Shown one piece after another: positions 4,522-19,415 of a stretch of DNA of 27,484 nt. The notes beneath the pieces are model-generated. The model was not told the origin of the DNA. It saw only the letters and a list, made by a program, of their open reading frames with translations, and made no database searches. The DNA is from a virus. Position 1 is the stretch's first letter. Every line of letters begins with the position of its first letter. The DNA lies in the IMG/VR virus record IMGVR_UViG_3300036651_000126, positions 1 to 27,484 of that record, one strand, 5' to 3'. Made by a program: the position numbers and the translations under genes.

Positions 4522-7500
4522 ATGCCGCTCCGTGACGTAACAGGGGTCGTCTTCGACCGTGGCAATGGACCTTTCAACGAGTCGGCTGCCCGTGAGGCCT
4601 ACCACCTGGTGATGAAGATGGACCCGGAGTCCGCCAACGAGTTCGTCCACCACGTCGTCAACGAGGTCGTGGAGACGGTGATCGAGGAGAACCGGGAACT
4701 GGTGCAGAAGCACCTTGACCGCACCATTGCCAAGTGCCTGGTCTACGCCGACCTCGATGCAGTGGCTGCGGGCCTCAATCTTGAGGAGCGTCAGGAGTTC
4801 AAGAAGGCTCTGCTTGCAACTGTTAGCAAGGCAGAGTTCGACCCGGATGAGCACCTGCGGGATGACCATGGTCGCTTCATTGTGATGACCACTCATCAGT
4901 TGAGCCGCAAGGACGCTGAGAAGATGGGCATCAACATTCCGCCGCACCCCGACCATGACGAGTTGGTACGGAGCAACCCTGCGGCCCTCAACCGCTACCG
5001 ATCCCAGTACGCCCAGGTGGTCAACCACCTGAACCTGCACGACGGCTTCGCTGGGCACAACAATGTCACCCTGCACTACACCAGCGGCGATCCCCAGGAA
5101 GTCAAGGTTCACAAGAACCCCGCGACCCTCGCTGCTGCGATCCGGCCCGAGGAGGGCGTAGACGTGAAGGCGGTGGAAATCACCCCCTACAAGCCCGTCA
5201 TGGGCGGCAAGGTTGTGAACCTGACCCAGGCCTTGGGTGGCGGCGCTGCTGCTGGGATGAAGACCATCGGCTCCAAGGAAACCGACATGTCGGGCTACAG
5301 CGACCCCTACGCCGAGGGGGGCGAGTCGCCTTTCGTGCGACAGTGGAACTCGGGACATCCCAGCAACTCCACCCAGCAGATGTACAACCGGATTGGCGCT
5401 GGGTCAAAGTTGATCACCGACACCGGGCTCGGTGCCGCCAACCCCCTGGCGCGCACGGCTGCCAAGTTTGGCTCCTACGTTGGCCAGTACGGCTCCTCGG
5501 CTGAGTCCGTGTTCGGCCCTCCGGTGCGCCGGATGGCCTACCGCTACCGGGGTACCGAGCGGCGACCACCCGCCGACCTTGTTGAGGAATACGGCACCGC
5601 CGTACACAACGCCAAGCAGACCCTGGGCGCTCAGCCCAACCGCCGTTACGGGGAGTCGGTTCAGGACTGGGAGAAGCGGGCCATGCTGACTCACGCTGAG
5701 CGTGTTCCGACCTGGCAGGAGCGGGGCGCGGGTCGCGTTGCCATCGCTCGCTGGTTGGAGAAGCAGGCCCCGGACAAGCAATACACCGCACTGCACCTTC
5801 AGGCTGGCCACACTCCTCCGTCTGAGGGCGTCCTCCTGAACGCTGACGGCCAAATCGTCACCACCGCTGTCGGCGCTGCTGATGACTGGTATCTGCCGTT
5901 CAACCTCAAGCACCTGAGCCAGTTGAAGGGTGGGGAGTACATCCGCACCCGCTCCTCCGGTGGCTTGACCCCTGAGGATGTCTACACCGGCCTGATGACC
6001 GGCGCGCGCCGCGTCAGCGTGGTCTCACGCTCCGGCGTGTTCTCCATTGACTTCGATGACGAACTGCGTGGCGGTCGCCGCCACAACGACAAGGCGCTGC
6101 GGATGACCAAGCGCTATGCCGAGTTGCTGGACGCAGTGCAGTCGGGCCAGGTCCAGCGAGCCGACCTCGACCCGAAGCAGATGAACGAGATTCGCGCGGA
6201 GGTTCGCAGCAAGCACCCCGGCATCTCCGGCAAGGAGTTCCAGGAGCGGGTCAACGCTGCGAAGAAGGAGCGGATGGAGAACCCCACCCACATTGATCTT
6301 GAGATTGAGCACCTCAAGTTCGACCGCGCGCAGACCGAGAAGACCCGCGCGCTGGGTAAGGATGAACTGACCGCCTACAACGAGCGCCTCTTCGATCTGA
6401 ACAAGCAGAAGGAGTACAACTGGCGGCTCAACGGGATTGGCTACGGAGCAGCCGCCAAGGCGCTCCAGGAGCAGTTCCCGTACTACATCAAGGCCTCCTA
6501 CACCGCTCGATTCGGCCACGACACGCCCATCTCTGAGAAGGACATGGGCTACGTGGAGCCCGGCGCGCTGCGGCCCACCGCCGCCCGCGCCAACTTGTTC
6601 GGGGGCGCTGTCGGCCCTAATGGAGTGCGGGTCAAGGCTCAGTGGGACGAGAAGCACAAGGGCGGCATCTCTGCGCGCACCGCTGACCACGCCAAGCCGA
6701 TTGTGGATCGCTACCCCGACAAGAAGGGGCGCAGTGGCGACATGGCTCCCGAGAGTAGCGAGAGCAGCGAGAGCGCTTCGTCCTCTGGGTGGTCAGGCTC
6801 CTCGGGTGCCTCTGCTGAGGAGAAGCAGGCGGCCTGGCTGCGCAAGCAGGAGGCCATCGAGGAAGCCACCAAGGTCCGCGCGGCCCTCCCCGCACTCGTT
6901 GGGATTAAGCAAGATGGCGGCATTGATATCCCTCAGTTCGTCGCAGCGCAGAGGTACGCCGCCATGAGCAAGCCAGGCGAGTTCGAGGAGGTGATCAGTC
7001 GCCCGGGTGAACTGGAGAAGTTCCAGGACGCCGTCCAGCAGGTCCAAGATCGTTACTCCATCGACCCTAGGTCCAAGGACACCAAGGTCCCGAACTTCGA
7101 GGAGTTCAAGTCCAAGATGGGCGGCAAGAAGGGAGGGGAGTACAAGCATGAGAAGGCTGTGCGCAACCCTGAGGGCATCTTCTCCTTCCCTGGCATCTCC
7201 CCCATCGAGCGCGATCAGGCGATGAGTGCACCCATGGCCAGCAATGGCCGCGCTGCTGGTGACGCGGACGCGACCGAGCGGCTGAACGAGGCGAAGATGT
7301 GGGTCGAAGCCGACAAGATCGCCAACGACAGTTCAATCGAGTCGGGCGATAAGGCTGCATACCTGCGGCTCAAACTTGAGCATCTTGGCATCGAGCCTGC
7401 GGACGAGGACTTCTACAGGGACGCGATGGATGAGGGGATTCGCAAGCGCGCCCTGCGGAACATCCAATTGGTCCGTGCCGAGAAGGACAAGCCGCTGGTG

Positions 7501-7596
7501 GCCATCGGGAGCGGCAAGGCTGCCAAGCAACCATTTGTGAAACCTGCGGATGAGTACCGAGGCGCAGGGCCGCGTACCAAGTTGGACCTGACATGA
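4522..7596 (+). CDS. Large head-module protein of unknown function (1024 aa)
   Basis: ATG 4522 sits one base after the portal stop. The in-frame GTG/ATG codons further up overlap the portal and were rejected. Residues 101-119 carry VSKA-x-FDP-x2-HLRDDHGRF, a motif also present in the MuF protein downstream. A beta-rich central domain around residues 445-535 includes PPSEGVLLNADGQIV, LPFNLKHLSQLKGGEY, GLTPEDVYTGLMTGARRVSV and FSIDFDDELRGGRR. A helical charged region follows, then GIGYGAAAKALQEQFPYYIK at about 636-655. A Ser/Glu-rich linker spans about 744-766, and the C-terminal 250 residues are helical. There is no signal peptide or membrane segment. The portal-MuF location implies a virion or assembly protein. 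Its biochemical role is unknown. Confidence 0.8.
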   Translation: MPLRDVTGVVFDRGNGPFNESAAREAYHLVMKMDPESANEFVHHVVNEVVETVIEENRELVQKHLDRTIAKCLVYADLDAVAAGLNLEERQEFKKALLATVSKAEFDPDEHLRDDHGRFIVMTTHQLSRKDAEKMGINIPPHPDHDELVRSNPAALNRYRSQYAQVVNHLNLHDGFAGHNNVTLHYTSGDPQEVKVHKNPATLAAAIRPEEGVDVKAVEITPYKPVMGGKVVNLTQALGGGAAAGMKTIGSKETDMSGYSDPYAEGGESPFVRQWNSGHPSNSTQQMYNRIGAGSKLITDTGLGAANPLARTAAKFGSYVGQYGSSAESVFGPPVRRMAYRYRGTERRPPADLVEEYGTAVHNAKQTLGAQPNRRYGESVQDWEKRAMLTHAERVPTWQERGAGRVAIARWLEKQAPDKQYTALHLQAGHTPPSEGVLLNADGQIVTTAVGAADDWYLPFNLKHLSQLKGGEYIRTRSSGGLTPEDVYTGLMTGARRVSVVSRSGVFSIDFDDELRGGRRHNDKALRMTKRYAELLDAVQSGQVQRADLDPKQMNEIRAEVRSKHPGISGKEFQERVNAAKKERMENPTHIDLEIEHLKFDRAQTEKTRALGKDELTAYNERLFDLNKQKEYNWRLNGIGYGAAAKALQEQFPYYIKASYTARFGHDTPISEKDMGYVEPGALRPTAARANLFGGAVGPNGVRVKAQWDEKHKGGISARTADHAKPIVDRYPDKKGRSGDMAPESSESSESASSSGWSGSSGASAEEKQAAWLRKQEAIEEATKVRAALPALVGIKQDGGIDIPQFVAAQRYAAMSKPGEFEEVISRPGELEKFQDAVQQVQDRYSIDPRSKDTKVPNFEEFKSKMGGKKGGEYKHEKAVRNPEGIFSFPGISPIERDQAMSAPMASNGRAAGDADATERLNEAKMWVEADKIANDSSIESGDKAAYLRLKLEHLGIEPADEDFYRDAMDEGIRKRALRNIQLVRAEKDKPLVAIGSGKAAKQPFVKPADEYRGAGPRTKLDLT

Positions 7597-9596
7597 CCCT
7601 GCTCCCCCAGATTGAACTGACCTCGGAGCGCCCCATTGCTCCCGAGATGCTGCTGGACGCGGCGGTCAGGGACTATCGGGCGAGGGTGGTCAAGGAGGGC
7701 GTACTGCGCGTCCTGGCTGGGCCGCTTGAGTTCGGCGGCGGCTTCCTCTCAGGCGTGCTTAAGGAGGTGATGGCAGGCAACCTGCACCCGTACCGGATCA
7801 TGGCTGGCGCTGCTATCCGGCACCTGATCCTCGACTCCCGCGAGCGCAACGGCATCTTCATCCAGGAGACGGACGCTGCCCAGGTGGCTGACGAGGCCGC
7901 TCTCAACCTGGTCACCTACGTGGCGAGCACCTCTGGGGACGCAGTGTTGGATGGCTATCACCGGATGGTCAACATGGGCATCCCGCCCAAGGAGGCCGCT
8001 CGGCGCGCCATCAGCGCCTTCGGCCTCACCAAGCCCCAGATGCGCACCATGATCGCGCTCAAGCCGGACCAGGGCGTCAAGTCCTCGGTGCCTGGGTCGC
8101 TGAAGAAGAAGTCAGACGCCTACATCCGGCGCGCCTTCCAGCAGCGGGTACGGACCCTGAACCAGAACACGGTGCGCCAGGTTGAGCACGATGCGGTCCA
8201 GTCCGGCTGGGAGGAAGAGGTCCGCACCGGCACCTTGCAGGACACCACTCTCAAGGTTTGGCTGACTGCTGCCGACGAGCGCACCTGCCCGATCTGTGCT
8301 CCGATGGATCGGCACGCCGTGGGCGTGATGGACACCTTCCGGCTCCCGGATGGCAACCGGGTGAAGAACCCTCCAGTGCACGTCAACTGCCGCTGCTCGA
8401 CCCAGTTGGTGCGGGACTATCGCGACGTAGAGCGCTTCTCCAAGGCCTGGGACCCCAAGAAGCACCCCCGTCAGAGCAACGGCGAGTTCGGACGCAAGGA
8501 AGTCGCTTTCAAGGACCCGGGGCGTCAGATCAACCTCACCGACCTCTCAATGGAGCAATTGAGTGAGGTGTCCGGCTTGACCGATCTGGGGGGTCCGCAG
8601 TTGAGCATCCCCTCACAACTGACCAATTTCACGAGCCTCACTAACTTCACTCCCCTCACCTCCCTCACTCCCCTCACCCCCACCTCGCTTAGCAACCTCA
8701 CCAGCACGGCGACCACGCCCAGCAGCCTGACCAATTACCAACTGGACGGACTGGTCTCCCCCAGCGGCAAGACCTACTCACTGACCAACCTGTCTCTGGT
8801 CGCTGCCGCCGCTACCGCGCACCCCGACCTAGCCCCTCGGGAGGCACCTATCTCAGGCCCCGTGCGCTCCCTGGGCACGGAGTACGTCTCCCTCGCGCTG
8901 CCTAGCGATTTTGAGCGCACTGATCTGAGCGATTCCAGCGGAGCCTTGTATCTCGATGGCCTCAGGTTCGTGAAGCGGGGCAATTATCCGGCGCTGCGCA
9001 ACCTCGTCAACGAGAAGATGAGTGCTCCGCGCGGCGCGGACACCTGGCTTGATGAGCATGAGCACGATATGGCTGCCGAGTTGGACGAACTCAGGTCCAG
9101 CAAGGACCCGAACATCACCCAACTTCACAAGAGCCTGGTGCATCAGTTGGTGGGCAAGAACGTCTACGGCGCGCCAGTGCTGGACATCAGCGCTGACCGG
9201 GCCAAGGAAGCGTGGCGCGAGGTGCTCAGCCGCCCTAGCAGCGAGGTGGAGCGGCGGCAGGTTGGCTGGAAGGACGGCCAGTACAGCGTCGCGGTCTTCG
9301 ATGGCAACGGGCATCAGATTGCTGAGGAGTTAGTGCCTGCTCACGTCTACGCCGCCCTGACCAACATCAGTCCCGAGGCCGAGTTCATGCCGCGCGTATT
9401 CGCTGCGCGCAACGCCTGGGATTCCAAAGCGGCTGGCACGGAGGGCGATACCGAACAGGTGGTTGCCGGAAGCGACGAGGAACTGAATGTGGGAGGGCCG
9501 TTCGTCTGGAAGAAGGGCCTCCGTGGCGTCTTCTGGCTGACGCCTGACGTAGACCTCCAGCCTCGCATGGCTCGGGGTAGGACCGGCGAAGGCTGA
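7593..9596 (+). CDS. MuF-type minor head protein with C-terminal extension
   Basis: ATG 7593 overlaps the previous stop (ATGA). The first 275 of 667 residues are a phage head-morphogenesis (MuF/SPP1 gp7-like) domain. It is helical and contains the signature WLTAADERTCPICAPMD followed by PPVHVNCRCSTQLV, a Cys/His cluster. This family binds the portal and is packaged in small copy number. Residues 282-299 carry FSKAWDP-x2-HPRQSNGEF, the tag-like motif shared with the upstream protein. Residues about 343-384 are a Leu/Thr/Asn/Pro repeat linker. A further 280-residue acidic domain has no recognised fold. Long extensions after MuF domains are known in other phages and sometimes encode effectors; none can be identified here. 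Confidence 0.88.
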   Translation: MTLLPQIELTSERPIAPEMLLDAAVRDYRARVVKEGVLRVLAGPLEFGGGFLSGVLKEVMAGNLHPYRIMAGAAIRHLILDSRERNGIFIQETDAAQVADEAALNLVTYVASTSGDAVLDGYHRMVNMGIPPKEAARRAISAFGLTKPQMRTMIALKPDQGVKSSVPGSLKKKSDAYIRRAFQQRVRTLNQNTVRQVEHDAVQSGWEEEVRTGTLQDTTLKVWLTAADERTCPICAPMDRHAVGVMDTFRLPDGNRVKNPPVHVNCRCSTQLVRDYRDVERFSKAWDPKKHPRQSNGEFGRKEVAFKDPGRQINLTDLSMEQLSEVSGLTDLGGPQLSIPSQLTNFTSLTNFTPLTSLTPLTPTSLSNLTSTATTPSSLTNYQLDGLVSPSGKTYSLTNLSLVAAAATAHPDLAPREAPISGPVRSLGTEYVSLALPSDFERTDLSDSSGALYLDGLRFVKRGNYPALRNLVNEKMSAPRGADTWLDEHEHDMAAELDELRSSKDPNITQLHKSLVHQLVGKNVYGAPVLDISADRAKEAWREVLSRPSSEVERRQVGWKDGQYSVAVFDGNGHQIAEELVPAHVYAALTNISPEAEFMPRVFAARNAWDSKAAGTEGDTEQVVAGSDEELNVGGPFVWKKGLRGVFWLTPDVDLQPRMARGRTGEG

Positions 9597-9608: not shown

Positions 9609-12452
9609 ATGGACCCGCAGATTGTTCAGAACGCGCTACGCGCAGTGCTTGGAGACGCCTACGAGGAGCGCTCCCGCGTCACCATCAACGATCCGCGCCC
9701 CGACGCTCCGGTGCGCAAGGACGCCGTTGGGTCCGACATGCACGTCATGACCTCCATCAGCACGCCCCGCAGCAAGCGCGCGGTGCGCGTCCCGGGCGGC
9801 AACGGCAAGTTGAAGCCGATGGTCTCGGTTGTGGACAACTCTGTGGGCAGTGTGGATAAGGCCATGGACCCCCAGACCAAGTCCAAGGTGGGCGAGGGCC
9901 TGACCACTGCCGGAGCGGTCGGTGGAGCACTCTCCCTCCCTGGGTTGGCGGGACACACGGGCACCAAGTTGCAGCAGGCTGGGGTGCTCAAGCCCAAGGC
10001 CGCACTCCCCCCGATGGCCGCAGGCATGAACGCGGACCCGGAGGTCGCCCACATCGGGACTGGAGTAAGCCGAAAGATCAGCCACGTTCTTAAGCCGATG
10101 GCGGACGCTGCGCACAAGTTGCCCGGCATGAAGGTCGAGGGCGAGGGGCTCCGTAACCCCAAGGTTGGTGCTGGCCTCGCTGTCGGTGCCGCAGGGCTGG
10201 AGATTGCGGGCCTGGCTGGTGACGTGATGGGTCGCAAGGCTTTCAAGGAGCAGCGTCAGGTCGGCACTCCGGGCAACATCGCCGGAGTTTCTAAGTCAGA
10301 CGCTGGCAAGCGCCGTCAGGGCGCTGCTGCTCTTGGCGCTGGCACCGTTGCTGGCAGCCTTGGGGCCGTGATGGGCGGCGTCCCGGGCGCGAAGGAGCCG
10401 GACACCCTGCGTCCCTGGAGTCTGAAGAGCGCTCCCCACCTGTCCCGCGCTGGCATCTTCGGCTACCGATCCAACGCTCATGAGCACGCCACGGCGAGCA
10501 TTAAGGCCGAGCCTCGCGTCACCGCCTACGAGAAGGGCAACATGGCCGGGAAGGTCGAGGCGGAGACCAAGATCATGCGTGGCATGCGCCGCGCCCGTAA
10601 GGGCAGTTACGCGCTCACCGCACTGGGTGGCGCTACGGCTGTGGCTGGTGCTCACCGGTTCCACGAGGGCAACAAGAAGGTCAGCAAGGCCAGGAGGAGC
10701 GACTCGCGCACCAACCTGTCCAGCGCTGAGGTAGGTGCTGGAGCCGCTCTGGCAGGCGGTGGCCACCTGATCCCCAAGGCTCTAGATCACTACGCCCGAC
10801 ACTTCGACCAGAGCGCCAAGACCCACCTGCGTTCCGCTGAGGCAATCGCTCCCAACTTGGGTGGTCCCCGGATGAAGCCTGCCCGGATGAACGCGGATGG
10901 CCACGAGGTGCGCCCGGCGAAGGTGGACCGCAAGCCCGAGGTGGAGAATTACAAGATTCTTCCCTCTAAGGCCGACCCCCAGCAGGTGCACCCGGCGCGC
11001 CAGGAGCAGAAGGGTCGCCTCAAGGGAGTCCCGCGCGAGGGCCGATTCCAGGCTGGCCTGCACCGTGGCAAGGCTGCCAACGAGGCTCACTTCGCTGACG
11101 TGTTCGCTGAGAACGCCGAGCACTTCCGTCGCCTGCGCGCACCCGGCCTGGCGCTGGCCGGAGCCGGTGCGATGGGCCTGGCGGTGTCCCACCAGGACCG
11201 AGGGCCGGTCAAGAAGTCCGCAGAGGATGTAGTGACCTTCTCCAAGGTGGATGACGACAAGCAGCAGGTCTTCGGCTGGGTCTCCATCTCCAAGAAGGAT
11301 GGGGTCGAGGTGCTCGACCTCCAGGGCGACTACGTGCCCATCGAGGAGATTGAGAAGTCGGCCTACGACTACATGCTCAAGTCCCGCAAGGGTGGCAACC
11401 AGCACGCTCGCATCTACTCCGAACTCGGTGACCAGCCCAAGCACGTCGCTGACGTGATCGAGTCTGTGGTCTTCACCCCGGAGAAGATCGAGAAGATGGG
11501 CCTGCCTGGGGATCACACCCAGGGCTGGTGGATGGGCATGCAGATTTTCGATGACGAGACCTGGCGTCAGGTGAAGTCCGGTGAGCGCGCTGGCTTCTCT
11601 ATCCACGGCCAGGGCAAGCGCGAGGTTGTCGAGAAGGCCCATGACGAGATTGATCGCAAGGAACAGGCCAAGATCATCGGCCTAGGTGCCGCTGGTGCCA
11701 CCGCTGCTGGCTCCGGTGCGGCGGCTGCCACTGTTCCGTGGCTCCAGCAGAACCACCCCGCGCGGGCGGCCAAGGTGGGGATCAAGTCTGCTCAGCAGGC
11801 TGAGAAGTTGAGCGGACACCTGAAGTTGGTTGCCGCTGGTGTTGCTGCGCCTGCGGGTATCTATGGCGGCCTGCACGCCATCCACTCCGCAGTGCACCGT
11901 CCACCCAAGAAAACCGACCCCAAGCGCACCATGGCTGACATCGTGGTCGGCAAGGCGTGGTCCCCTGTGGTTGAGCACAACAGCCTGGAGGAGGACCGTC
12001 AGCGTCGTACGGCTGGCTATCAGCGGGCCGCCACGGCTACTGCTGCTGGTGGGGCTGCTGTTGGTGCGGGTGGTCTCGCCGTGCGTCACGTCAGCCTGCG
12101 CGGTGCGGCTGAATCCAAGGCTTCCGCTGATCGCGTCCGGGTTCCCACCAGTGCTGATCTGGAGCGCAACCTCAAGCGGGGTGCGAACTACCGCAGGGCC
12201 AGGAACATCCCAGAGGGAGGCAAGAAGGCCGCCCTCTCTATGAGGACCACGAACCTGAACCACAGTGCAGCGGTAAAGACGGCCACCGACATCAAGGCTG
12301 GGCATGAAGCCGCTGCTGGGAAGTTGGTCGCTCGCGCGGGGAATGCGGGCAAGGTCGCCCGGGTTGGTGGGTTGGTCGCCCTGGGTGCCGGAGCAGCCGC
12401 TGGAGCCATCCATCACGAGCGCAAGAACTCCTGGAAGCCCTACGGCCAGTAG
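9609..12452 (+). CDS. XkdF-like capsid maturation protease in a 947-aa Gly/Ala-zipper protein
   Basis: ATG 9609 follows AGAGGA at good spacing. The central part, about residues 546-672, matches the phage XkdF serine protease family. It has VFGWVSISKKDG, LDLQGDYVPIEEIEKSAYDYMLKSR, then His599 (GNQHARI) and His612, VADVIESVVFTPEK, WWMGMQIFDDETWRQVKSGE and Ser664 in AGFSIHG. Ser664 and His599 are the likely catalytic residues by family analogy. Such proteases digest scaffold and trim capsid proteins in the prohead. Unusually, the domain is embedded between about 535 N-terminal and 275 C-terminal residues. These flanks contain some ten Gly/Ala-rich hydrophobic segments, several ending in His/basic residues (AGAIHHERK, AGAHRFHEG, LHAIHSAVHR). 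Family members are normally only a few hundred residues. The flanks may be membrane-active or head-internal. Confidence 0.85.
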   Translation: MDPQIVQNALRAVLGDAYEERSRVTINDPRPDAPVRKDAVGSDMHVMTSISTPRSKRAVRVPGGNGKLKPMVSVVDNSVGSVDKAMDPQTKSKVGEGLTTAGAVGGALSLPGLAGHTGTKLQQAGVLKPKAALPPMAAGMNADPEVAHIGTGVSRKISHVLKPMADAAHKLPGMKVEGEGLRNPKVGAGLAVGAAGLEIAGLAGDVMGRKAFKEQRQVGTPGNIAGVSKSDAGKRRQGAAALGAGTVAGSLGAVMGGVPGAKEPDTLRPWSLKSAPHLSRAGIFGYRSNAHEHATASIKAEPRVTAYEKGNMAGKVEAETKIMRGMRRARKGSYALTALGGATAVAGAHRFHEGNKKVSKARRSDSRTNLSSAEVGAGAALAGGGHLIPKALDHYARHFDQSAKTHLRSAEAIAPNLGGPRMKPARMNADGHEVRPAKVDRKPEVENYKILPSKADPQQVHPARQEQKGRLKGVPREGRFQAGLHRGKAANEAHFADVFAENAEHFRRLRAPGLALAGAGAMGLAVSHQDRGPVKKSAEDVVTFSKVDDDKQQVFGWVSISKKDGVEVLDLQGDYVPIEEIEKSAYDYMLKSRKGGNQHARIYSELGDQPKHVADVIESVVFTPEKIEKMGLPGDHTQGWWMGMQIFDDETWRQVKSGERAGFSIHGQGKREVVEKAHDEIDRKEQAKIIGLGAAGATAAGSGAAAATVPWLQQNHPARAAKVGIKSAQQAEKLSGHLKLVAAGVAAPAGIYGGLHAIHSAVHRPPKKTDPKRTMADIVVGKAWSPVVEHNSLEEDRQRRTAGYQRAATATAAGGAAVGAGGLAVRHVSLRGAAESKASADRVRVPTSADLERNLKRGANYRRARNIPEGGKKAALSMRTTNLNHSAAVKTATDIKAGHEAAAGKLVARAGNAGKVARVGGLVALGAGAAAGAIHHERKNSWKPYGQ

Positions 12453-12507: not shown

Positions 12508-13266
12508 ATGCCGAAGCCAGCCACGCGGCTCCGCGACATGGAGATTGATGAAGTCTCCGTCGTGGACAAGGGTGCGGCTCCTGACGCTTTGATCGCCATT
12601 GCCAAGAGGGCTACCCAGGAGGTTGACATGCCCAAGTACACGTTTGAGGACGGTACGCCGGTCAGCGAGGAGGAACTCGTCCCCGGTGACATCGTCTTCG
12701 ATGAGAACGGCGGGGCCTTTGAGTACGTCCTTGAGGACGAGGCCGCCGAGGATTTTGCTGACGAGAGCGAACTGGAGCCGGTCGGCAAGGCCGCCTTCCC
12801 GTCCTTCACTGAGGAGATTCGCGAGGAGTTGTCCAAGGCGTTCGAGAACCGCGACGCCTCTGGTCAGCGTGAACTCTTCGCCAAGGCTGCCCAGGAGATT
12901 GACTCGCTGCGCCGACAGGTCGCTGAGTCTCAGAGCATCGCCAAGGCCGAGCGCGACACGCGCCTGACCGAGGCGTACATCTCCAAGGCTGCGGAGTACA
13001 ACCTCCCCGGCGACCCGCGTGACCTCGGCCCGGTCCTCTTCCGCATGGCAGAGACCATGTCCTACGAAGACTGCGCAGTCATCAACAAGGCGCTGACCGC
13101 TGCTGGCTCGATGCTGTTCCAGGAGATTGGCGCTGTGGGCGGCGGAGACAACGACGACATCCTCACCCAGGTTGCCAAGGCCGCCTACGAGGGTGGCAGC
13201 GACGTGATCAGCGTCCTGGACGAAAACCCCGAGGCTTACGCCGAGTACCTGGCGAGCCAGAAGTAA
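12508..13266 (+). CDS. Capsid scaffold-like protein
   Basis: ATG 12508 has GAAGGAG nine bases upstream. The 252-aa product begins with LRDMEIDEVSVVDKGAAPDA and IAIAKRA. That resembles the short [E/D]-x-VSLVDKGA element I associate with the ends of XkdF-type proteases and the starts of their scaffolds. An acidic segment follows (FEYVLEDEAAEDFADESELE). Next come a helical coiled-coil-like region at about residues 100-160 (LFAKAAQEIDSLRRQVAESQ) and a C-terminal region with YNLPGDPRDLGPVLFRMAETMSYEDC and LFQEIGAVGG, typical of actinophage scaffolds. It is flanked by the protease and the decoration/capsid genes, the classic position. It presumably lines the prohead interior and is digested by the upstream protease. 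Confidence 0.75.
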   Translation: MPKPATRLRDMEIDEVSVVDKGAAPDALIAIAKRATQEVDMPKYTFEDGTPVSEEELVPGDIVFDENGGAFEYVLEDEAAEDFADESELEPVGKAAFPSFTEEIREELSKAFENRDASGQRELFAKAAQEIDSLRRQVAESQSIAKAERDTRLTEAYISKAAEYNLPGDPRDLGPVLFRMAETMSYEDCAVINKALTAAGSMLFQEIGAVGGGDNDDILTQVAKAAYEGGSDVISVLDENPEAYAEYLASQK

Positions 13267-13723: not shown

Positions 13724-14734
13724 ATGCCTAACCCCGTAGGCCCTGACCTTCACGTCAACGTGCCGCTGACCAACGTCAGCATCGCGTATTTCCAGGATCA
13801 GTCGAACTTTGTCGCTGACAAGGTCTTCCCGATCATCCCGGTTGACAAGCAGAGCAACCTCTACAACCGCTACAGCAAGTCGCAGTGGCGCAAGACGAAC
13901 GCGCAGAAGCGTGCTCCGGGTACCGAGTCGGTCGGCACCGGGTACGACATCACGCGTGACCAGTACTACTGCGATGTCTACGCGATCCACAAGGACATCA
14001 CCGACCAGGACCGCGCTGCGGCTGACTCGGAGTGGATGCTGGACAAGGACGCCACCAACCTGGTGTCCAACGACCTCTTGCTCATGCGTGAGATTGCCTG
14101 GCAGCAGAACTTCTTCGGCACCGGTATCTGGGGTACCGACCTGGCTGGTACCAACACCGGCTCTGGTCAGTTCCCCAGCACCAACACGTTCCTTCAGTGG
14201 GACCAGGCGTCGTCTGACCCGATTCAGCAGTTCGCGACTCTCCAGGAGTCGTTCATCCAGAACTCGGGTCGCAAGGCGAACAAGTTGGTGCTCGGTGCTC
14301 ACGCGTACAACGCGCTGAAGAACCACCCGGACCTGATCGACCGCATCAAGTACACCCAGAAGGGCATCGTGACGACTGACCTCATCGCGACCCTGCTGGA
14401 TGTGGAGAAGGTCTACGTCTGCTACGCCTCGCAGGCGACCGGTCCCCAGATGGATGGTGCGGTGGCCGATGACGCCAACGCGACCTACTCCTTCATCGCG
14501 GACACCAAGTCGGCCCTCCTGTGCTACGCACCGGACTCGCCGTCGCTGCTCACCCCGAGCGCGGGCTACACCTTCAACTGGAAGGGCTACCTCGGCGGCA
14601 ACGCCCAGGGCGTCCGGATGAGCCGGTTCCGCATGGAGCACCTCAAGGTGGACCGGATCGAGGGTGAAATCACCTACGCACAGAAGGTGGTCTGCAACGA
14701 CATGGGCACCTTCATGCACGCGGTCACTGCGTAG
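13724..14734 (+). CDS. Major capsid protein
   Basis: ATG 13724 is preceded by AAGGAG at nine bases. The 336-aa product has the size and position of an HK97-fold capsid subunit. Its N-terminal arm (VPLTNVSIAYFQDQSNFVADKVFPIIPV) leads into an E-loop-like basic stretch (YNRYSKSQWRKTNAQKRAPG). Then come DITRDQYYCDVYAIHKDITDQDR, a spine helix (NDLLLMREIAWQQNFFG) and a domain containing GRKANKLVLGAHAYNALKNHPDLIDRIK. The late segment (FRMEHLKVDRIEGEITYAQKVV) resembles the P-domain strand that closes many capsid proteins. A strong hairpin follows at 14760-14792, consistent with high expression. The HK97 fold is inferred from context and pattern; no catalytic motif is expected. Confidence 0.85.
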   Translation: MPNPVGPDLHVNVPLTNVSIAYFQDQSNFVADKVFPIIPVDKQSNLYNRYSKSQWRKTNAQKRAPGTESVGTGYDITRDQYYCDVYAIHKDITDQDRAAADSEWMLDKDATNLVSNDLLLMREIAWQQNFFGTGIWGTDLAGTNTGSGQFPSTNTFLQWDQASSDPIQQFATLQESFIQNSGRKANKLVLGAHAYNALKNHPDLIDRIKYTQKGIVTTDLIATLLDVEKVYVCYASQATGPQMDGAVADDANATYSFIADTKSALLCYAPDSPSLLTPSAGYTFNWKGYLGGNAQGVRMSRFRMEHLKVDRIEGEITYAQKVVCNDMGTFMHAVTA

Positions 14735-14812: not shown

Positions 14813-15145
14813 ATGGACGGTCACGACGCCTTCTTTGGCGAGGTGAGCAAGGGCTGGTCCCCGGGGAAGGTCGCTGCCGTCTACCGGGCCGGAAGCAGTC
14901 ACGGGGGAACCCTGGCGACCGAGTGGGGCAACTCGAAGATGATCGCGCACCGCAACGGCAAGCATTTCGCAGAGATGACCCGCGAGGGAGTCTCTCGGGG
15001 TGACGCCTCCTTCGCAATCCATAACGGCAGGCGGAACGCCGCTGAGGCCAGGGAGATGCTCTCCACTGGCAAGCGGTACGGGAAGCGCAAGTTCGTCGCC
15101 CCCGGGGCCGCCCATCGCCCTGGCCAACTACGACCCCTCCCTTAA
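14813..15145 (+). CDS. Tag-bearing hypothetical protein after the capsid gene (110 aa)
   Basis: ATG 14813 follows AGGAGA. The product opens directly with MDGHDAFFGEVSKGW, the clearest copy of the GH[D/E]AFF motif that recurs in this window. The remainder is basic and small (HGGTLATEWGNSKMIAHRNGKHFAEMTREGVSRG, then AIHNGRRNAAEAREML). It has no membrane segment or catalytic signature. It is not one of the standard head genes and lies between the capsid hairpin and a Pro-rich protein. The first 25 coding bases after the A of ATG are nearly repeated at 18750-18774, at the 3' end of another gene. A virion-associated accessory role is inferred from this alone. Confidence 0.75.
   Translation: MDGHDAFFGEVSKGWSPGKVAAVYRAGSSHGGTLATEWGNSKMIAHRNGKHFAEMTREGVSRGDASFAIHNGRRNAAEAREMLSTGKRYGKRKFVAPGAAHRPGQLRPLP
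14814..14838 (+). repeat. 25-bp near-identical repeat, copy 1 (encodes DGHDAFFG)
   Basis: These bases match 18750-18774 at 23 of 25 positions, and both differences are synonymous. Here the repeat forms the very start of a gene. Copy 2 forms the end of another, nearly 4 kb away. Confidence 0.85.
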
Positions 15146-15155
15146 GGAGAATGAC

Positions 15156-15749
15156 ATGAAGCCCCTTCTTGCCAGCCGATACATCAGTTGGATGGCCATC
15201 CGCCCGCTTCGCTTCGGTGAGCGCGACTTCGCCCCTGGCGAGAAGGTGCCCCAGAAGTACCTGGAGCCCATGCGCGACCCTGAGGTGCTGATCCGCACCA
15301 ACCGCCTCGCTGCGGTGACCAAGGACATGAACAAGATTCCCCGGATGCTGCGCAAGTTGGTGACCGAGGAGGAGGAGATGCGGGCCAAGATTCTGGCTCC
15401 TCGTGGCGGCGTCGGCCAGGTCGTGCCGACCCACCTGCTGGCCTCTACCCCTGAGCCGGAGCCGGTGACGCTGCCCACCTTCACTGATGAGGATGTGGAG
15501 CCGACCGAGTTCGAGAAGGCACACTCCGCCAGCGCGGGTCCTGACACGGCCCCTCTGGGCCCTGCTGACATCTCTGACAGCACCCCGGCCCCTGCGCCCA
15601 AGGAAAGCGGGCAGGCGGACACGCCGGTACCGTCTGAGACGCCGGAGCCTGAGGTTACCCCCGTCCCCGTCGAGGAGCCCCAGGCTCCGGTCCAGCCCCA
15701 GGCGGACGCGACTTCAGAAGCAACGCCAGAGGAGGCTTCCGGTGAGTAA
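15156..15749 (+). CDS. Head-associated protein with acidic Pro-rich tail (197 aa)
   Basis: The chosen start is ATG 15156, with AAGGAG six bases upstream. An ATG at 15151 is out of frame and too close to the ribosome binding site. The N-terminal half holds a small beta-like domain (ISWMAIRPLRFGERDFAPGEKVP, then DPEVLIRTNRLAAVTKD). This resembles the tiny R-P-x-R-FxPGxxVP domains of small phage head proteins. From about residue 90 the protein becomes a disordered acidic Pro/Thr/Glu-rich tail (PEPEPVTLP, TPEPEVTPVPVEEPQ). The stop overlaps the start region of the next gene by 8 bases. Its role is not known; a surface or connector-associated protein is possible. Confidence 0.75.
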   Translation: MKPLLASRYISWMAIRPLRFGERDFAPGEKVPQKYLEPMRDPEVLIRTNRLAAVTKDMNKIPRMLRKLVTEEEEMRAKILAPRGGVGQVVPTHLLASTPEPEPVTLPTFTDEDVEPTEFEKAHSASAGPDTAPLGPADISDSTPAPAPKESGQADTPVPSETPEPEVTPVPVEEPQAPVQPQADATSEATPEEASGE

Positions 15750-17841
15750 GAACATCACGTACCACCAGACTGCGGCTCGTAAGGGTCGCCGCACCCGTAA
15801 CGACTCCGCCGCCATCGGCGGTCTGGGCCTGGCAGGGCTCGCGGCCACCCCGAAGAAGCCCGGGTTTTTTGGCAATTCGCACCTGAGGGAGAGCGCGAAC
15901 GAGACAAATCGCATTGCCTCGGCAGAGCATCGCGCTTCCTCGTCCTTCTCTGGGGCGGACAGGGTCAAGGGTCATGTGGCGACCGAAATGGGCCGCGTTG
16001 CGAACCTGGCTGGCGACGTGCGACACACGGTCCACCCCGGGCGCGGTCTCGCTGAGGCTGCGGTGGGGGTCGGTGCGGCTGGGATTGCAGCAGGCGAGGC
16101 CCGTAACTTCCACCACACCCGGCAGGAGCAGAAGTTGCGCCGCAACCGGGGCGTCTCCAAGTCTGCCTTCCTTGATGAAAGCGTGAGCAAGGCCATGAAG
16201 GGCAGGCAGGTCTACTGCAAGCAGCACGGCAAGTTCGACGCGTGCGCCGAATCGGTGGAGAAGGCCTACAAGGCCAAGCCTAAGCCGGGCGACCCGGGCT
16301 TCATGGGCCACGCCATCAAGAATGCCCACAAGCGTCACCGTGCGGCCCTCCAGCGCTCCAAGACGGAGAACCTGGGTGACAACGGGATCGTCCACGCGGT
16401 CGGCAAGGCTGCCAAGTTCCCCCAGGGTGGCGACGACGGCATCCGGCACCTGACCGGTACCTCGCACATCACCACCTCGGTGGAGGGTCGCGGGACTGGC
16501 AAGTTGGTGGCCTGTGAGGTCGGCAACCGCCAGTTCGATGGCACCCCGATGATGGGTCACGCCAAGGGACACGCTGCGATCCTCCGGCAGGACAAGCAGG
16601 GCAAGTCCTCGCCTGCTACGGCTGCGGTGGGTGGCACCAGCCTGCGCGAGCAGGTCCCTGGCAAGAGCGTCTCCAAGGCGCATGAGGCTGACCCGTTCGA
16701 GGTGTTCTCTAAGGCCTCCATGTTCGGGACCAAGGGTGACAAGCGGAACACCAAGTACTACGCGGCTGCCACTGGCGGCTCCACGCTCGGCGGCCTTGTT
16801 GGTCGCTCAGCCGGGGGTGAGGTCGCCGGGGTCGCCGGGAACCGGACCGCGTTCGAGGCCGCCAAGGCGGGGCACGAGGCTGCTACTGATGCCACGCTTA
16901 GTAGCCGCGCCTGGGGCGGCGGGGCGATTGAGTCAATCAAGGCTGGACAGAAGGCAGCCAAGGTGGCCCGAAATGCCGTCCCTGGCTACAAGGCTGTCGA
17001 AAGGGGCGGCCTGATTGGTGCTGGCGTCGGCGCGGCTGGCGCAGCCGGGGCCTACGCGATGCACCGCCACAACAAGGGCATGGGTGTCCAGAAGTCGGCT
17101 GACCCGTTCGAGGTTGAGAAGGCCGAGAACAAGAATGTCCGCGCGAGCGGGGCGGCTCGCTACGGCCTAGGGCCCATCTTCACCGCCAAGAAGGGGAAGA
17201 AACTCGCCGCTACGGGGACCATGTTCGGACACTCCCTCGGCGGTGCGGTGGGGGGCGGCGTGACGGGAGCAGGTGCCGGGGCCGCTATTGGGCGTGTAGT
17301 GGGGGGCAAGGAAGGCATGATCGGCGGAGCCAGCCTGGGCGCGCTTGGCGGCGAAATTGCTGGCTCGGTTGCAGGAGCGCGCCATGCTGCCGACAAGAAT
17401 GCTCGCCTGGGTCGCCTCAAGAGCCACTATGTTGTGCAGAAGTCAGCCTTCCTTGACGAGGGCGTCTCCAAGGCGGTCAAGAAGGCCGAGCGGCCCGAGG
17501 AAGCGAAGAAGGGCCAGCACCCTCCCGAGGTGCACGCCTACATCGCTGAGAAGAAGAAGGACCTGAGCAAGTCTCACGACGCCTTCCTGGTGGACATCGA
17601 GAAGTTCGATGGCTTTGGTGCGGCCAAGAATGTCATCCCGGGGATCAGGCAGGCTGGCAGCCTGGCTGCCGGTGCGGTCAAGACCAACCCCATGGCCGCA
17701 GGCGTGGCTGGCGGGGCTGTCGGCGGTGGCCTGATGGGCAAGAAGAAGGTCAGGGACGCCATCGGTGGTGCAGCGGGCGTGGGTGCCGGAATCGGTGCAG
17801 CCAAGGGCGTGAAGGCGTTCCGCGCGTTCAAGGCGATCTAG
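15742..17841 (+). CDS. Gly/Ala-zipper protein with repeated peptide tags (699 aa)
   Basis: The chosen start is GTG 15742, because AGAGGAGG lies six bases upstream; the frame is open much further up but overlaps the preceding gene. Hydrophobic Gly/Ala-zipper blocks lie at about residues 24-36, 102-120, 341-366, 422-440, 496-550 and 638-695. Two of the blocks end in His/basic clusters (NFHHTRQEQK, MHRHNKG). Between them sit repeated short motifs: VSKSAFLDE-x-VSKA at 138 and in similar form at 565, DPFEV at 318 and 454, and SKSHDAFLVDIEK at 609. A small Cys-containing globular region spans about 155-300 (VYCKQHGKFDAC, GTSHITTSVEGRGTGKLVACEVG). I recognise no family. Similar zipper segments occur in the 947-aa protease protein, suggesting both act together, perhaps as head-internal or membrane-inserted ejection proteins (inference). 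Confidence 0.82.
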   Translation: MSKNITYHQTAARKGRRTRNDSAAIGGLGLAGLAATPKKPGFFGNSHLRESANETNRIASAEHRASSSFSGADRVKGHVATEMGRVANLAGDVRHTVHPGRGLAEAAVGVGAAGIAAGEARNFHHTRQEQKLRRNRGVSKSAFLDESVSKAMKGRQVYCKQHGKFDACAESVEKAYKAKPKPGDPGFMGHAIKNAHKRHRAALQRSKTENLGDNGIVHAVGKAAKFPQGGDDGIRHLTGTSHITTSVEGRGTGKLVACEVGNRQFDGTPMMGHAKGHAAILRQDKQGKSSPATAAVGGTSLREQVPGKSVSKAHEADPFEVFSKASMFGTKGDKRNTKYYAAATGGSTLGGLVGRSAGGEVAGVAGNRTAFEAAKAGHEAATDATLSSRAWGGGAIESIKAGQKAAKVARNAVPGYKAVERGGLIGAGVGAAGAAGAYAMHRHNKGMGVQKSADPFEVEKAENKNVRASGAARYGLGPIFTAKKGKKLAATGTMFGHSLGGAVGGGVTGAGAGAAIGRVVGGKEGMIGGASLGALGGEIAGSVAGARHAADKNARLGRLKSHYVVQKSAFLDEGVSKAVKKAERPEEAKKGQHPPEVHAYIAEKKKDLSKSHDAFLVDIEKFDGFGAAKNVIPGIRQAGSLAAGAVKTNPMAAGVAGGAVGGGLMGKKKVRDAIGGAAGVGAGIGAAKGVKAFRAFKAI
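16686..16703 (+). repeat. 18-bp exact direct repeat, copy 1 (encodes ADPFEV)
   Basis: The 18 bases GGCTGACCCGTTCGAGGT occur identically at 17097-17114, 411 bases downstream and in the same reading frame. Each copy encodes Ala-Asp-Pro-Phe-Glu-Val and is followed by a Lys within four residues. Identity at synonymous positions suggests recent internal duplication of this peptide motif or recombination between copies. Confidence 0.85.
17097..17114 (+). repeat. 18-bp exact direct repeat, copy 2 (encodes ADPFEV)
   Basis: This is the partner of 16686-16703, with perfect identity over 18 bases. Here the motif is preceded by VQKS and followed by EKA, and it lies directly after a Gly/Ala-rich segment ending in a His/basic cluster. 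Confidence 0.85.
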
Positions 17842-17849
17842 GCTGAATT

Positions 17850-18350
17850 ATGCCTCCTTCCACCTACTCCGGGGACCCGGCGACCAGTGACCTCGATCAG
17901 GTGCGATTCCTGCTCGGGGACACTGACGTGTCCAACGCGCTGTTCACTGACGCTGAGATTGAGTGGGGTATCAGCACCTGGGGTCCGCTGTACGGCTCCG
18001 ACCTATTGGTGGCTGCTCAGTTGGCCGAGAACGCTGCCGCCTCCTACGCCCAGCAGGCCTCCTACAACGCCGATGGCGTCTCGGTGTCCTTCGGGCCCAT
18101 TGGGGATGCCCTGCGTGCCGTAGCGGCCAGCCTGAAGAACCAGTACGCCATGGCTGCCCAGTCTGGCGTGATGCCTGACGCTGGTGGAGTGACTCCTGGT
18201 GAGGGGATGATCCCCAACACCCGGAACTTCATGTTCGGCATCAGGATGGACGACAACCCGAGCGCTGGCCAGCAGGACTTCGGTGGCGAGTGGCCTGCTG
18301 ACTTCTACAACGAGAGCACCTGGGGAGCACCGGGTGAGTGGTCGCCGTGA
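17850..18350 (+). CDS. Head-to-tail adaptor (neck connector)
   Basis: ATG 17850 lies eight bases after the previous stop, with only a weak ribosome binding site. The 166-aa product has the pattern of a gp6/gp15-type adaptor: an N-terminal DLDQVRFLLGDTD followed by ALFTDAEIEWGIS, then a helical AAQLAENAAASYAQQA. The LxxVRxLLGDxD...xLxDxEI pattern is typical for these ring-forming proteins, which dock under the portal. The C-terminal third is a Gly/Pro-rich acidic tail that may bind the next neck ring. It is first in the neck module, and its stop overlaps the next GTG start (GTGA). Confidence 0.85.
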   Translation: MPPSTYSGDPATSDLDQVRFLLGDTDVSNALFTDAEIEWGISTWGPLYGSDLLVAAQLAENAAASYAQQASYNADGVSVSFGPIGDALRAVAASLKNQYAMAAQSGVMPDAGGVTPGEGMIPNTRNFMFGIRMDDNPSAGQQDFGGEWPADFYNESTWGAPGEWSP

Positions 18351-18799
18351 GCGGGTTCACCAGGGGGCAGGCCCTCGATAACACCTCGGCAGACCCCCAC
18401 ATGGGCGACATGTCCCAGCGGGAAGGCGTCGAGCGCAGCAGCGAGGTCCTGAAGAAGGGCCGAACCGTGAAGACCCCTACCGGGCATCAGGTTTCAGTGC
18501 ATGGGCCTCGCGCTGTGGTGATTGCGCGCACTTTGGACCATGATCGCAGTGGACGCCCGGCCCCACTCATGCATGTCACCACCGTGGAGTCGGTCCGCTC
18601 TGGAGAGGCCGCGAAGACCTTCCAGAAGCACGCCAAGGCAATGGGACGGCATATTGCCAACCCGGCCTCCCTCCACGAGGAGATGGTGCATGGTGTCACG
18701 CAGGCAGCCTCGAAAGGATTTCTGGGGACTGGGCTCTTTCGCAAGAGCCTGGACGGTCACGATGCCTTCTTCGGAGGCCAGCGATGCGCAACGGACTGA
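18347..18799 (+). CDS. Tag-bearing hypothetical protein in neck module (150 aa)
   Basis: The chosen start is GTG 18347, overlapping the adaptor stop as GTGA; GTG 18338 is an in-frame alternative. The product has a basic, His-containing body (VKTPTGHQVSVHGPRAVVIARTLDHDRSGRPAPLMHVTTVES). A helical segment follows (FQKHAKAMGRHIANPASLHEEMVHGVTQA), and the C-terminus carries the GHDAFFGG tag near the end (FRKSLDGHDAFFGG). The gene lies between two standard neck genes but resembles neither. Its end overlaps the next gene by 16 bases. A role is not assignable from sequence; the shared tag groups it with the 110-aa, 70-aa and 699-aa proteins. Confidence 0.75.
   Translation: MSGFTRGQALDNTSADPHMGDMSQREGVERSSEVLKKGRTVKTPTGHQVSVHGPRAVVIARTLDHDRSGRPAPLMHVTTVESVRSGEAAKTFQKHAKAMGRHIANPASLHEEMVHGVTQAASKGFLGTGLFRKSLDGHDAFFGGQRCATD
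18750..18774 (+). repeat. 25-bp near-identical repeat, copy 2 (encodes DGHDAFFG)
   Basis: This is the partner of 14814-14838. It encodes DGHDAFFGG close to the C-terminus of the 150-aa protein. The GGAGG at 18773-18777, at the edge of this repeat, also serves as the ribosome binding site for the gene at 18784. Confidence 0.85.
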
Positions 18800-19206
18800 C
18801 CAAGCGGGGCACCCAGATGGTGCAACGGATGGCTACCTCTCAGATGCTCCAGACCTGCGTCGTGGAGAGGGTCTCAGCGGTCACCTACGACACTGCGACC
18901 TTGGAGGCTACTGCTGGCTCCCGCACCACGATCTACACCGGGATTTGCCGGGTCTGGGAGCAGCAGAACCCCTCTCAGGTGATGCTGGGTGAGTCTGAGT
19001 TCGTCCTGTACCAGACCGTCTTGAGCATCCCGTGGGACACCCCGACCGGGAATATCCCAGCCCTGCACGACGAGTTCCAGATTCTGACCTCCCCCACCGA
19101 CCCGAAGTGGGTTGGTAACCGGTTCCGCATCCAGTCGAGCAAGCGTGGTGGCCAGATCATGGCTACCCGCTCCTTCGTGGTCGAGAAGATGGACCCGCGA
19201 CCATGA
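18784..19206 (+). CDS. Head closure/stopper protein (DUF6093-like)
   Basis: ATG 18784 follows GGAGG at six bases and lies inside the end of the previous gene. The 140-aa product is beta-rich. It has CVVERVSAVTYDTATLEA, an IYTGICRVWEQQ turn, then VLYQTVLSIPWDTPTGNIPALHDEFQI, DPKWVGNRFRIQS and ATRSFVVEKM. This organisation matches actinophage DUF6093 proteins, which sit between adaptor and gp10-like genes and probably form the stopper ring that closes the portal channel. It ends in an ATGA overlap. The family assignment is from pattern recall; the role is inferred from gene order. Confidence 0.78.
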   Translation: MRNGLTKRGTQMVQRMATSQMLQTCVVERVSAVTYDTATLEATAGSRTTIYTGICRVWEQQNPSQVMLGESEFVLYQTVLSIPWDTPTGNIPALHDEFQILTSPTDPKWVGNRFRIQSSKRGGQIMATRSFVVEKMDPRP

Positions 19207-19415
19207 GCGGCCACGAGGCATTCTTCTCCAAGGCTGGCACCCATGCTGCTCCGGTAGGGAAACTCAAGCCGCTCAAGCCAGCCTCCTTGGACCACTTCAC
19301 GCACGTCCCAGAGCACCTCCCTGCCGCCAAGGGCGTCCGTGAGGCACTGGGGCGTGAGCGGGATGCCCTCCGGCTCGGAGTGACCCTCCAGCGCGCCGCT
19401 ATGAGGCGGCTATGA
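19203..19415 (+). CDS. Tag-bearing small protein in neck module (70 aa)
   Basis: ATG 19203 overlaps the previous stop (ATGA), and the stop overlaps the next start in the same way, so translation is well supported. The product opens with MSGHEAFFSKAG, an N-terminal copy of the GH[D/E]AFF-x-SK motif. A Lys/Pro-rich linker (GKLKPLKPASLDHF) and a basic helix (VREALGRERDALRLGVTLQRAAMRRL) follow. It resembles no standard neck protein and looks like a tag joined to a short basic helix. Function unknown. Confidence 0.78.
   Translation: MSGHEAFFSKAGTHAAPVGKLKPLKPASLDHFTHVPEHLPAAKGVREALGRERDALRLGVTLQRAAMRRL

Follow-up and report, generated by a model that had tools for sequence, protein, structure and literature searches.

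Why do several otherwise unrelated proteins, encoded among the head and neck genes of a phage, carry copies of the same short peptide, and carry it at the N-terminus, at the C-terminus or internally? The question is raised by a virus record of IMG/VR that spans 27,484 bases and is referred to here, in its entirety, as the window. Its genes are arranged in the order portal, 1024-aa protein, MuF-like protein, 947-aa protein with an XkdF-type protease domain, scaffold, cement and major capsid protein (MCP), followed by the 110-aa, 199-aa and 699-aa proteins, adaptor, 150-aa protein, stopper, 70-aa protein, gp10-like protein, terminator, tube and tape measure. The labels adaptor, stopper and terminator are those of the initial annotation, and PHROGs backs the functions of the portal, MuF, cement, MCP, gp10/Neck1 and tube proteins. 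That annotation had quoted peptides from the 110-, 150-, 70- and 699-aa proteins, and all are present in the proteins named, with five copies in the 699-aa protein (Table 1).

Table 1. Tag copies, predicted cleavage sites and associated genes of the window; vertical bars in peptides, here and in the text, mark predicted cut sites.
Feature	Position	Strand	Remarks
1024-aa conserved protein, function unassigned	4522..7596	+	Site VSK|AEFDPDEH after Lys103
MuF-like protein	7593..9596	+	Site FSK|AWDPKKHP after Lys284, immediately behind the MuF domain
947-aa protein with XkdF-type prohead protease	9609..12452	+	Pfam PF14550, E 2.9e-17
Protease domain Peptidase_S78_2, aa 541-671	11229..11621	+	Pfam match; predicted fold, best match T4 gp21
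Predicted sites bracketing the protease domain	Codon ends 11216 and 11636		VKK|SA (Lys536) and VEK|AH (Lys676)
Scaffold	12508..13266	+	Predicted sites after Lys 94, 110, 126, 146, 160, 194, 224
Major capsid protein	13724..14734	+	Without tag; served to find relatives
N-terminal tag MDGHDAFFGEVSK| of the 110-aa protein (14813-15145)	14813..14851	+	Predicted cut after Lys13, then G; layout as in 189/189 N-terminal tags of relatives
699-aa predicted polyprotein	15742..17841	+	Glycine/alanine-rich segments with tag cassettes between
Internal tag VSK|SAFLDESVSK|A, 699-aa protein	16162..16191	+	Predicted cuts at both ends
Internal tag VSK|AHEADPFEVFSK|A, 699-aa protein	16678..16713	+	Intermediate form SPFGVVSK|A in L002
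Internal tag VQK|SADPFEVEK|A, 699-aa protein	17095..17121	+	
Internal tag VQK|SAFLDEGVSK|A, 699-aa protein	17443..17472	+	
Internal tag LSK|SHDAFLVDIEK|F, 699-aa protein	17572..17604	+	
C-terminal tag GLFRK|SLDGHDAFFGG, 150-aa protein (18347-18799, GTG start)	18746..18778	+	Outer side of predicted site; layout as in 27/27 C-terminal tags of relatives
N-terminal tag MSGHEAFFSK|A, 70-aa protein (19203-19415)	19203..19232	+	Stopper/gp10 slot, tagged in relatives too

Within the window, the pattern [SDEHNT][AP]F-x(1-7)-[VIF]xK occurs six times in nine accessory, scaffold and protease proteins, where 0.34 occurrences would be expected (maximum of 3 in 2000 shuffles), and is absent from ten canonical head, neck and tail proteins, as the initial annotation had held for the recognised neighbours; both the pattern and the two protein groups were chosen after sight of the sequence. 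The shorter pattern [VF]xK[AS] is likewise concentrated in the former nine (26 versus 5.3 expected from shuffles), whereas the canonical set contains it at the expected frequency (3 versus 3.1). Each of the window peptides ends at, or comes after, a Lys situated two residues past a hydrophobic residue, as in GEVSK|G, FFSK|A, FRK|S and the copies of the 699-aa protein.

The decisive evidence is independent of the window. A search of IMG/VR with an MCP alignment yielded 80 related loci, and a near-fixed peptide, M-x-SAFG[VI][DE]HG-x-[VI]SK, was found in approximately 30 related uncultivated phages (SAFGVDHGEVSK of record G041 is one example). Among the non-scaffold ORFs of the nearer loci, a loose form of the tag pattern yielded 75 occurrences where 18 were expected, the majority of which read as the near-fixed peptide. 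The gene slots that carry the tag SAFG[VI][DE]H correspond to those of the window: across the relatives, tagged genes recur in four slots (protease-scaffold, MCP-adaptor, adaptor-stopper and stopper-gp10). The tagged genes of the window fill three of these, and the fourth is covered by its fused 947-aa protein. In one relative, L002, separate ORFs lie between protease and scaffold (L002:2051-5550), the first of which begins with the tag NAFGVDDGTISK; the window instead encodes a single 947-aa protein with the protease in its middle.

A tree of the MCPs places the window as the sister of a supported clade comprising 26 loci (support of 95/93 for the set of 27), and SAFG tags occur in all 26 of these. 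The window tags themselves differ from SAFGVDH and are linked to the family by their position, their Lys site, the common AF or PF, and the intermediate forms of L002 (54% MCP identity), namely NAFGVDDGTISK, SPFGVVSK and, in its scaffold, DAFLEEGISK. As part of the best explanation of these data, the window peptides GHDAFF, SAFLDE and DPFEV are probably diverged copies of a family-wide tag, which would place the window at the diverged edge of a larger system. The canonical window genes have homologues in the relatives, most of them approximately 38-62% identical, whereas none was found there for the 110-, 699-, 150- and 70-aa proteins; thus, the tagged genes change quickly while the tag persists. 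For the 699-, 150- and 110-aa proteins and the protease protein, searches of named phages and IMG/VR found homologues only in two near-identical contigs, L001 and L030; other matches were confined to the protease domain.

Chance, compositional likeness or DNA-level repetition could also generate recurrent peptides, and such an origin might be suspected from two window tags that resemble each other in DNA and from one-off pattern matches in unrelated phage genes. One such match, TAFGIEH in a DnaB-like helicase fragment (L118:914-1300), was rejected as fortuitous. For the family, this explanation is so improbable that it is rejected, on the grounds of the shuffle tests and fixed gene slots already described, of controls for strand and direction, and of the DNA itself. 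In a search of whole records, SAFG[VI]xH was present in 16 of 28 relatives with up to 8 copies each, exclusively on the coding strand, and the reversed pattern gave zero matches in the same 28 records. When anchored at the start codon, M-x-SAFG[VI][DE]H was found in at least 120 IMG/VR stretches among the matches listed, against an estimated nine or so by chance. The 108 copies of SAFGVDH are encoded by 95 different DNA spellings, which indicates selection on the peptide; this codon diversity, along with the existence of C-terminal copies, rules out a DNA repeat or a translation-start signal. The tag led to 23 further records. The family's MCP or protease is present in each of the 11 that contain at least three copies; records with neither mostly have one copy and may be chance matches. 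No credible tag was detected in named phages, where the best match (E 2) fell in a tape measure gene. Hints alone of alternative tags were obtained in related clades without SAFG. In one such branch, an N-terminal GK[VF]QTSI[KR]K|A is repeated on ORFs of unequal length (L067:11646; L071:11628 and 11927) and is possibly another tag. Tag-like variants were also observed as MSTSVWGVEHGDISK|A (L092:6942) and MSHFVYSDEVAK|G (L084:4184).

In total, 241 distinct tag occurrences were collected. Of those that had been obtained by means other than the tag, 85 lie at the N-terminus, 18 at the C-terminus and 10 internally. Across the whole collection, the complete carriers, once the tag is masked, form 107 clusters of otherwise unrelated proteins. 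An alignment of 95 representatives leaves only M, S-A-F-G, H and a downstream Lys as near-invariant, the last of which lay outside the search pattern used to collect the tags. A hydrophobic-x-Lys follows within 20 residues of each of the 189 N-terminal tags borne on ORFs of more than 40 residues, whereas the same test with Arg or Glu succeeds for 42 and 27, respectively; it likewise precedes every C-terminal tag (27 of 27). The tag is thus always on the side that cleavage at this Lys would remove, which accounts for what had puzzled the initial annotation, namely that a single motif can be N-terminal, internal or C-terminal.

That the Lys marks a site of proteolysis is suggested by the scaffolds. 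In 43 scaffolds, non-redundant at 60% identity, hydrophobic-x-Lys-[Ala/Ser] occurs 308 times versus 45 in shuffled sequences (maximum 65), and the corresponding Arg form 17 times versus 29; the consensus at these sites is [IVL][ASG]K|[AS]. Across 14 related scaffolds, the position that follows hydrophobic-x and precedes Ala/Ser is occupied by Lys in 103 instances (18 expected) and by Arg in none (8.9 expected). Coiled-coil periodicity is ruled out as the origin of the motif, since Arg, Glu or Gln at the same position is not enriched. The P1' residue is not invariably small, and Leu, Arg and Phe also occur. In the T4 scaffold gp22, the enriched motif is [LI]xE, which is the one known for T4, and there is no enrichment of hydrophobic-x-Lys; the scaffolds of T7 and P22 are enriched in neither. 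The protease domain is itself preceded by a matching site within 25 residues in 31 of 44 relatives, compared to 32% of random upstream segments of the same proteins. Common to the 1024-aa and MuF proteins of the window, after their predicted sites, is a D-P-x-x-H-x-R-x(3)-G-x-F sequence (4831-4875 and 8445-8490; AEFDPDEHLRDDHGRF and AWDPKKHPRQSNGEF), similar forms of which are present in L002 and L041.

The protease of the window matches Pfam family PF14550 at 63.3 bits against a cut-off of 24. Two residues of the aligned window segment, H75 and S140, do not vary among the 38 aligned sequences and are presumably the catalytic residues of a serine protease. An AlphaFold model of the domain (pLDDT 82.7) gave no significant match with Foldseek against the PDB; in a second look with VIA-align, its best match was T4 gp21 (5jbl; Z 9.0, rmsd 3.4 over 109 residues), followed by herpesvirus proteases. 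As modelled, the domain would possess an assemblin/gp21-like fold. In the Arthrobacter phages Ottawa (L025:6142-7281) and Kovu (L026:6957-8090), proteins annotated as "RNA ligase" contain a C-terminal XkdF-type protease domain, directly preceded by ITK|S or LTK|A.

A precedent for such a site is provided by the gp4 protease and gp5 delta domain of HK97, where gp5 is cut at FNK103|S104 (PMC10275583). PDB chain 1ohg begins at residue 104 of this protein, and FNK|S fits hydrophobic-x-Lys|Ser. HK97 differs in that its scaffold is part of the capsid protein, and we know of no cargo-targeting tag in this phage. Owing to the scaffold enrichment, the HK97 precedent, the sites before the protease domain and the predicted protease fold, hydrophobic-x-Lys|[Ala/Ser] is a strong candidate for the sequence at which the XkdF-type prohead protease cuts. 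Among the papers searched, none was found to describe this tag or to give cleavage data for XkdF.

The initial annotation had offered a head-directing tag and a cleavage site for an XkdF-like protease as two options. Both are supported and coexist: the Lys end is the predicted site, on the basis of the scaffold statistics, the bracketed protease and HK97, and the core is a separate conserved element. It is likely that the tag serves as a removable capsid-targeting propeptide, similar in function to the capsid-targeting sequence (CTS) of T4, cut after Lys and placed at either end of a protein or internally. The SAFG[VI][DE]H core, linked to its hydrophobic-x-Lys, would be bound by some part of the assembling prohead core, most likely the scaffold, and proteins with a tag at either end or inside would be packed into the prohead. 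The XkdF-type protease, itself produced as part of a larger precursor with these sites on its flanks, would then cut after Lys in [IVLF]-x-K|[A/S/G], destroying the scaffold and trimming the tag off the cargo. The cargo, presumably a constituent of the virion, would remain in the head and probably be ejected with the DNA. In the window, it would consist of the 110-, 150- and 70-aa proteins and segments of the 699-aa polyprotein.

A different role for the core, that of an extended recognition or docking element that only recruits the protease to chosen substrates, with head entry by other means, would be compatible with its constant proximity to a predicted site. It would also suit the tags found on a MuF protein and on a portal, which reach the head anyway; in the portal homologue of L188 the tag lies near the C-terminus as VKK|SDTTSAFGVDHGDISK|G, so that tagging extends beyond small cargo. 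This role is nevertheless unlikely, because the scaffolds bear many sites without the AFF, AFL or AFG core, which is thus not needed for cleavage, and because most carriers are small, unrelated and without another evident route into the head.

Tagged proteins are mostly 97-214 aa in length, and 98% are net basic, compared to 21% of ORFs. Searches of 95 cargos against Pfam and PHROGs returned almost nothing, with Pfam matches for two, a GNAT acetyltransferase and a Gly-zipper protein. Tagged ORFs of L168, L132, L087, L188 and L240 include GNAT acetyltransferase (PF00583), HExxH-like and ADP-ribosyltransferase-like sequences, among which GNAT alone was confirmed; by eye, some carriers resemble zinc-protease or ADP-ribosyltransferase folds. 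The Gly-zipper match, together with the glycine/alanine-rich stretches of many carriers, including the 699-aa protein, could suggest instead that the tags are linkers whose excision matures glycine-rich ejection proteins, membrane-active or pore-forming, and which keep these proteins soluble until the head matures. Such a function is highly improbable in view of the GNAT acetyltransferase and other carriers that are not glycine-rich, and of the presence of tags at both ends of proteins.

The closest functional analogy is with T4, in which the 10 N-terminal residues of IPIII are enough to bring about entry into the head, with gp21 removing the peptide, and in which Alt, an ADP-ribosyltransferase, is packaged with the internal proteins and trimmed at both ends (PMC9026906). 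The CTS of IPI, IPII, IPIII and Alt is likewise short, removable and borne by internal head proteins that are unrelated to one another; these proteins are located in the prohead and ejected, and gp21 is a prohead protease of the fold predicted for the window protease. Here, too, several unrelated proteins carry the same short peptide, and its removal would proceed through an adjacent prohead-protease site, as judged from the scaffold statistics for hydrophobic-x-Lys. Unlike the T4 CTS, the present tag has another sequence and a predicted cut after Lys instead of Glu, is frequently C-terminal or internal, and reaches up to 9 copies per genome; the phages also form a separate lineage with an XkdF protease and a phage Mu-like portal. 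Given the different motifs for which gp22 and these scaffolds are enriched, common descent with the T4 CTS is not claimed. We conclude by analogy that the tag would be a functional counterpart of the CTS, unrelated in sequence, with a Lys-specific site and placement at both ends.

In SPN3US and phiKZ, a gp245-type prohead protease removes N-terminal propeptides from many head proteins, ejection proteins included, with several sites inside long propeptides (PMC10052503). As described there, these phages differ in cutting after Glu and in their mostly long propeptides, with no common short tag reported in the passages considered (PMC10052503). The herpesvirus assemblins have a related protease fold, as suggested by the model match. 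They are made inside a scaffold precursor and released at hydrophobic-x-Ala|Ser sites. They differ in that their P1 residue is Ala and that no tagged cargo family is known for them.

To our knowledge, little is understood of how non-shell proteins enter the heads of tailed phages other than the T4-like and giant ones. On balance, though with less assurance than the capsid-targeting role itself, the tag may be regarded as a modular two-ended protein-packaging signal, composed of a 7-residue core and a Lys-specific trimming site, that could be attached N-terminally, C-terminally or internally to any protein. Borne on more than 100 unrelated, small and fast-changing genes, it would provide each phage with its own head-delivered effectors. 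The Lys-specific site constitutes a testable cleavage rule for XkdF-type proteases, for which the warning in the initial annotation about trypsin is apt, since that enzyme itself cuts after Lys and would tend to hide such cleavage. The near-fixed peptide would predict head cargo from sequence alone, even where no homologues exist, and many genes of uncultivated phages with no assigned function thereby become candidates for head-delivered proteins. The same peptide may also be of use as a short tag with which proteins are loaded into siphophage heads.
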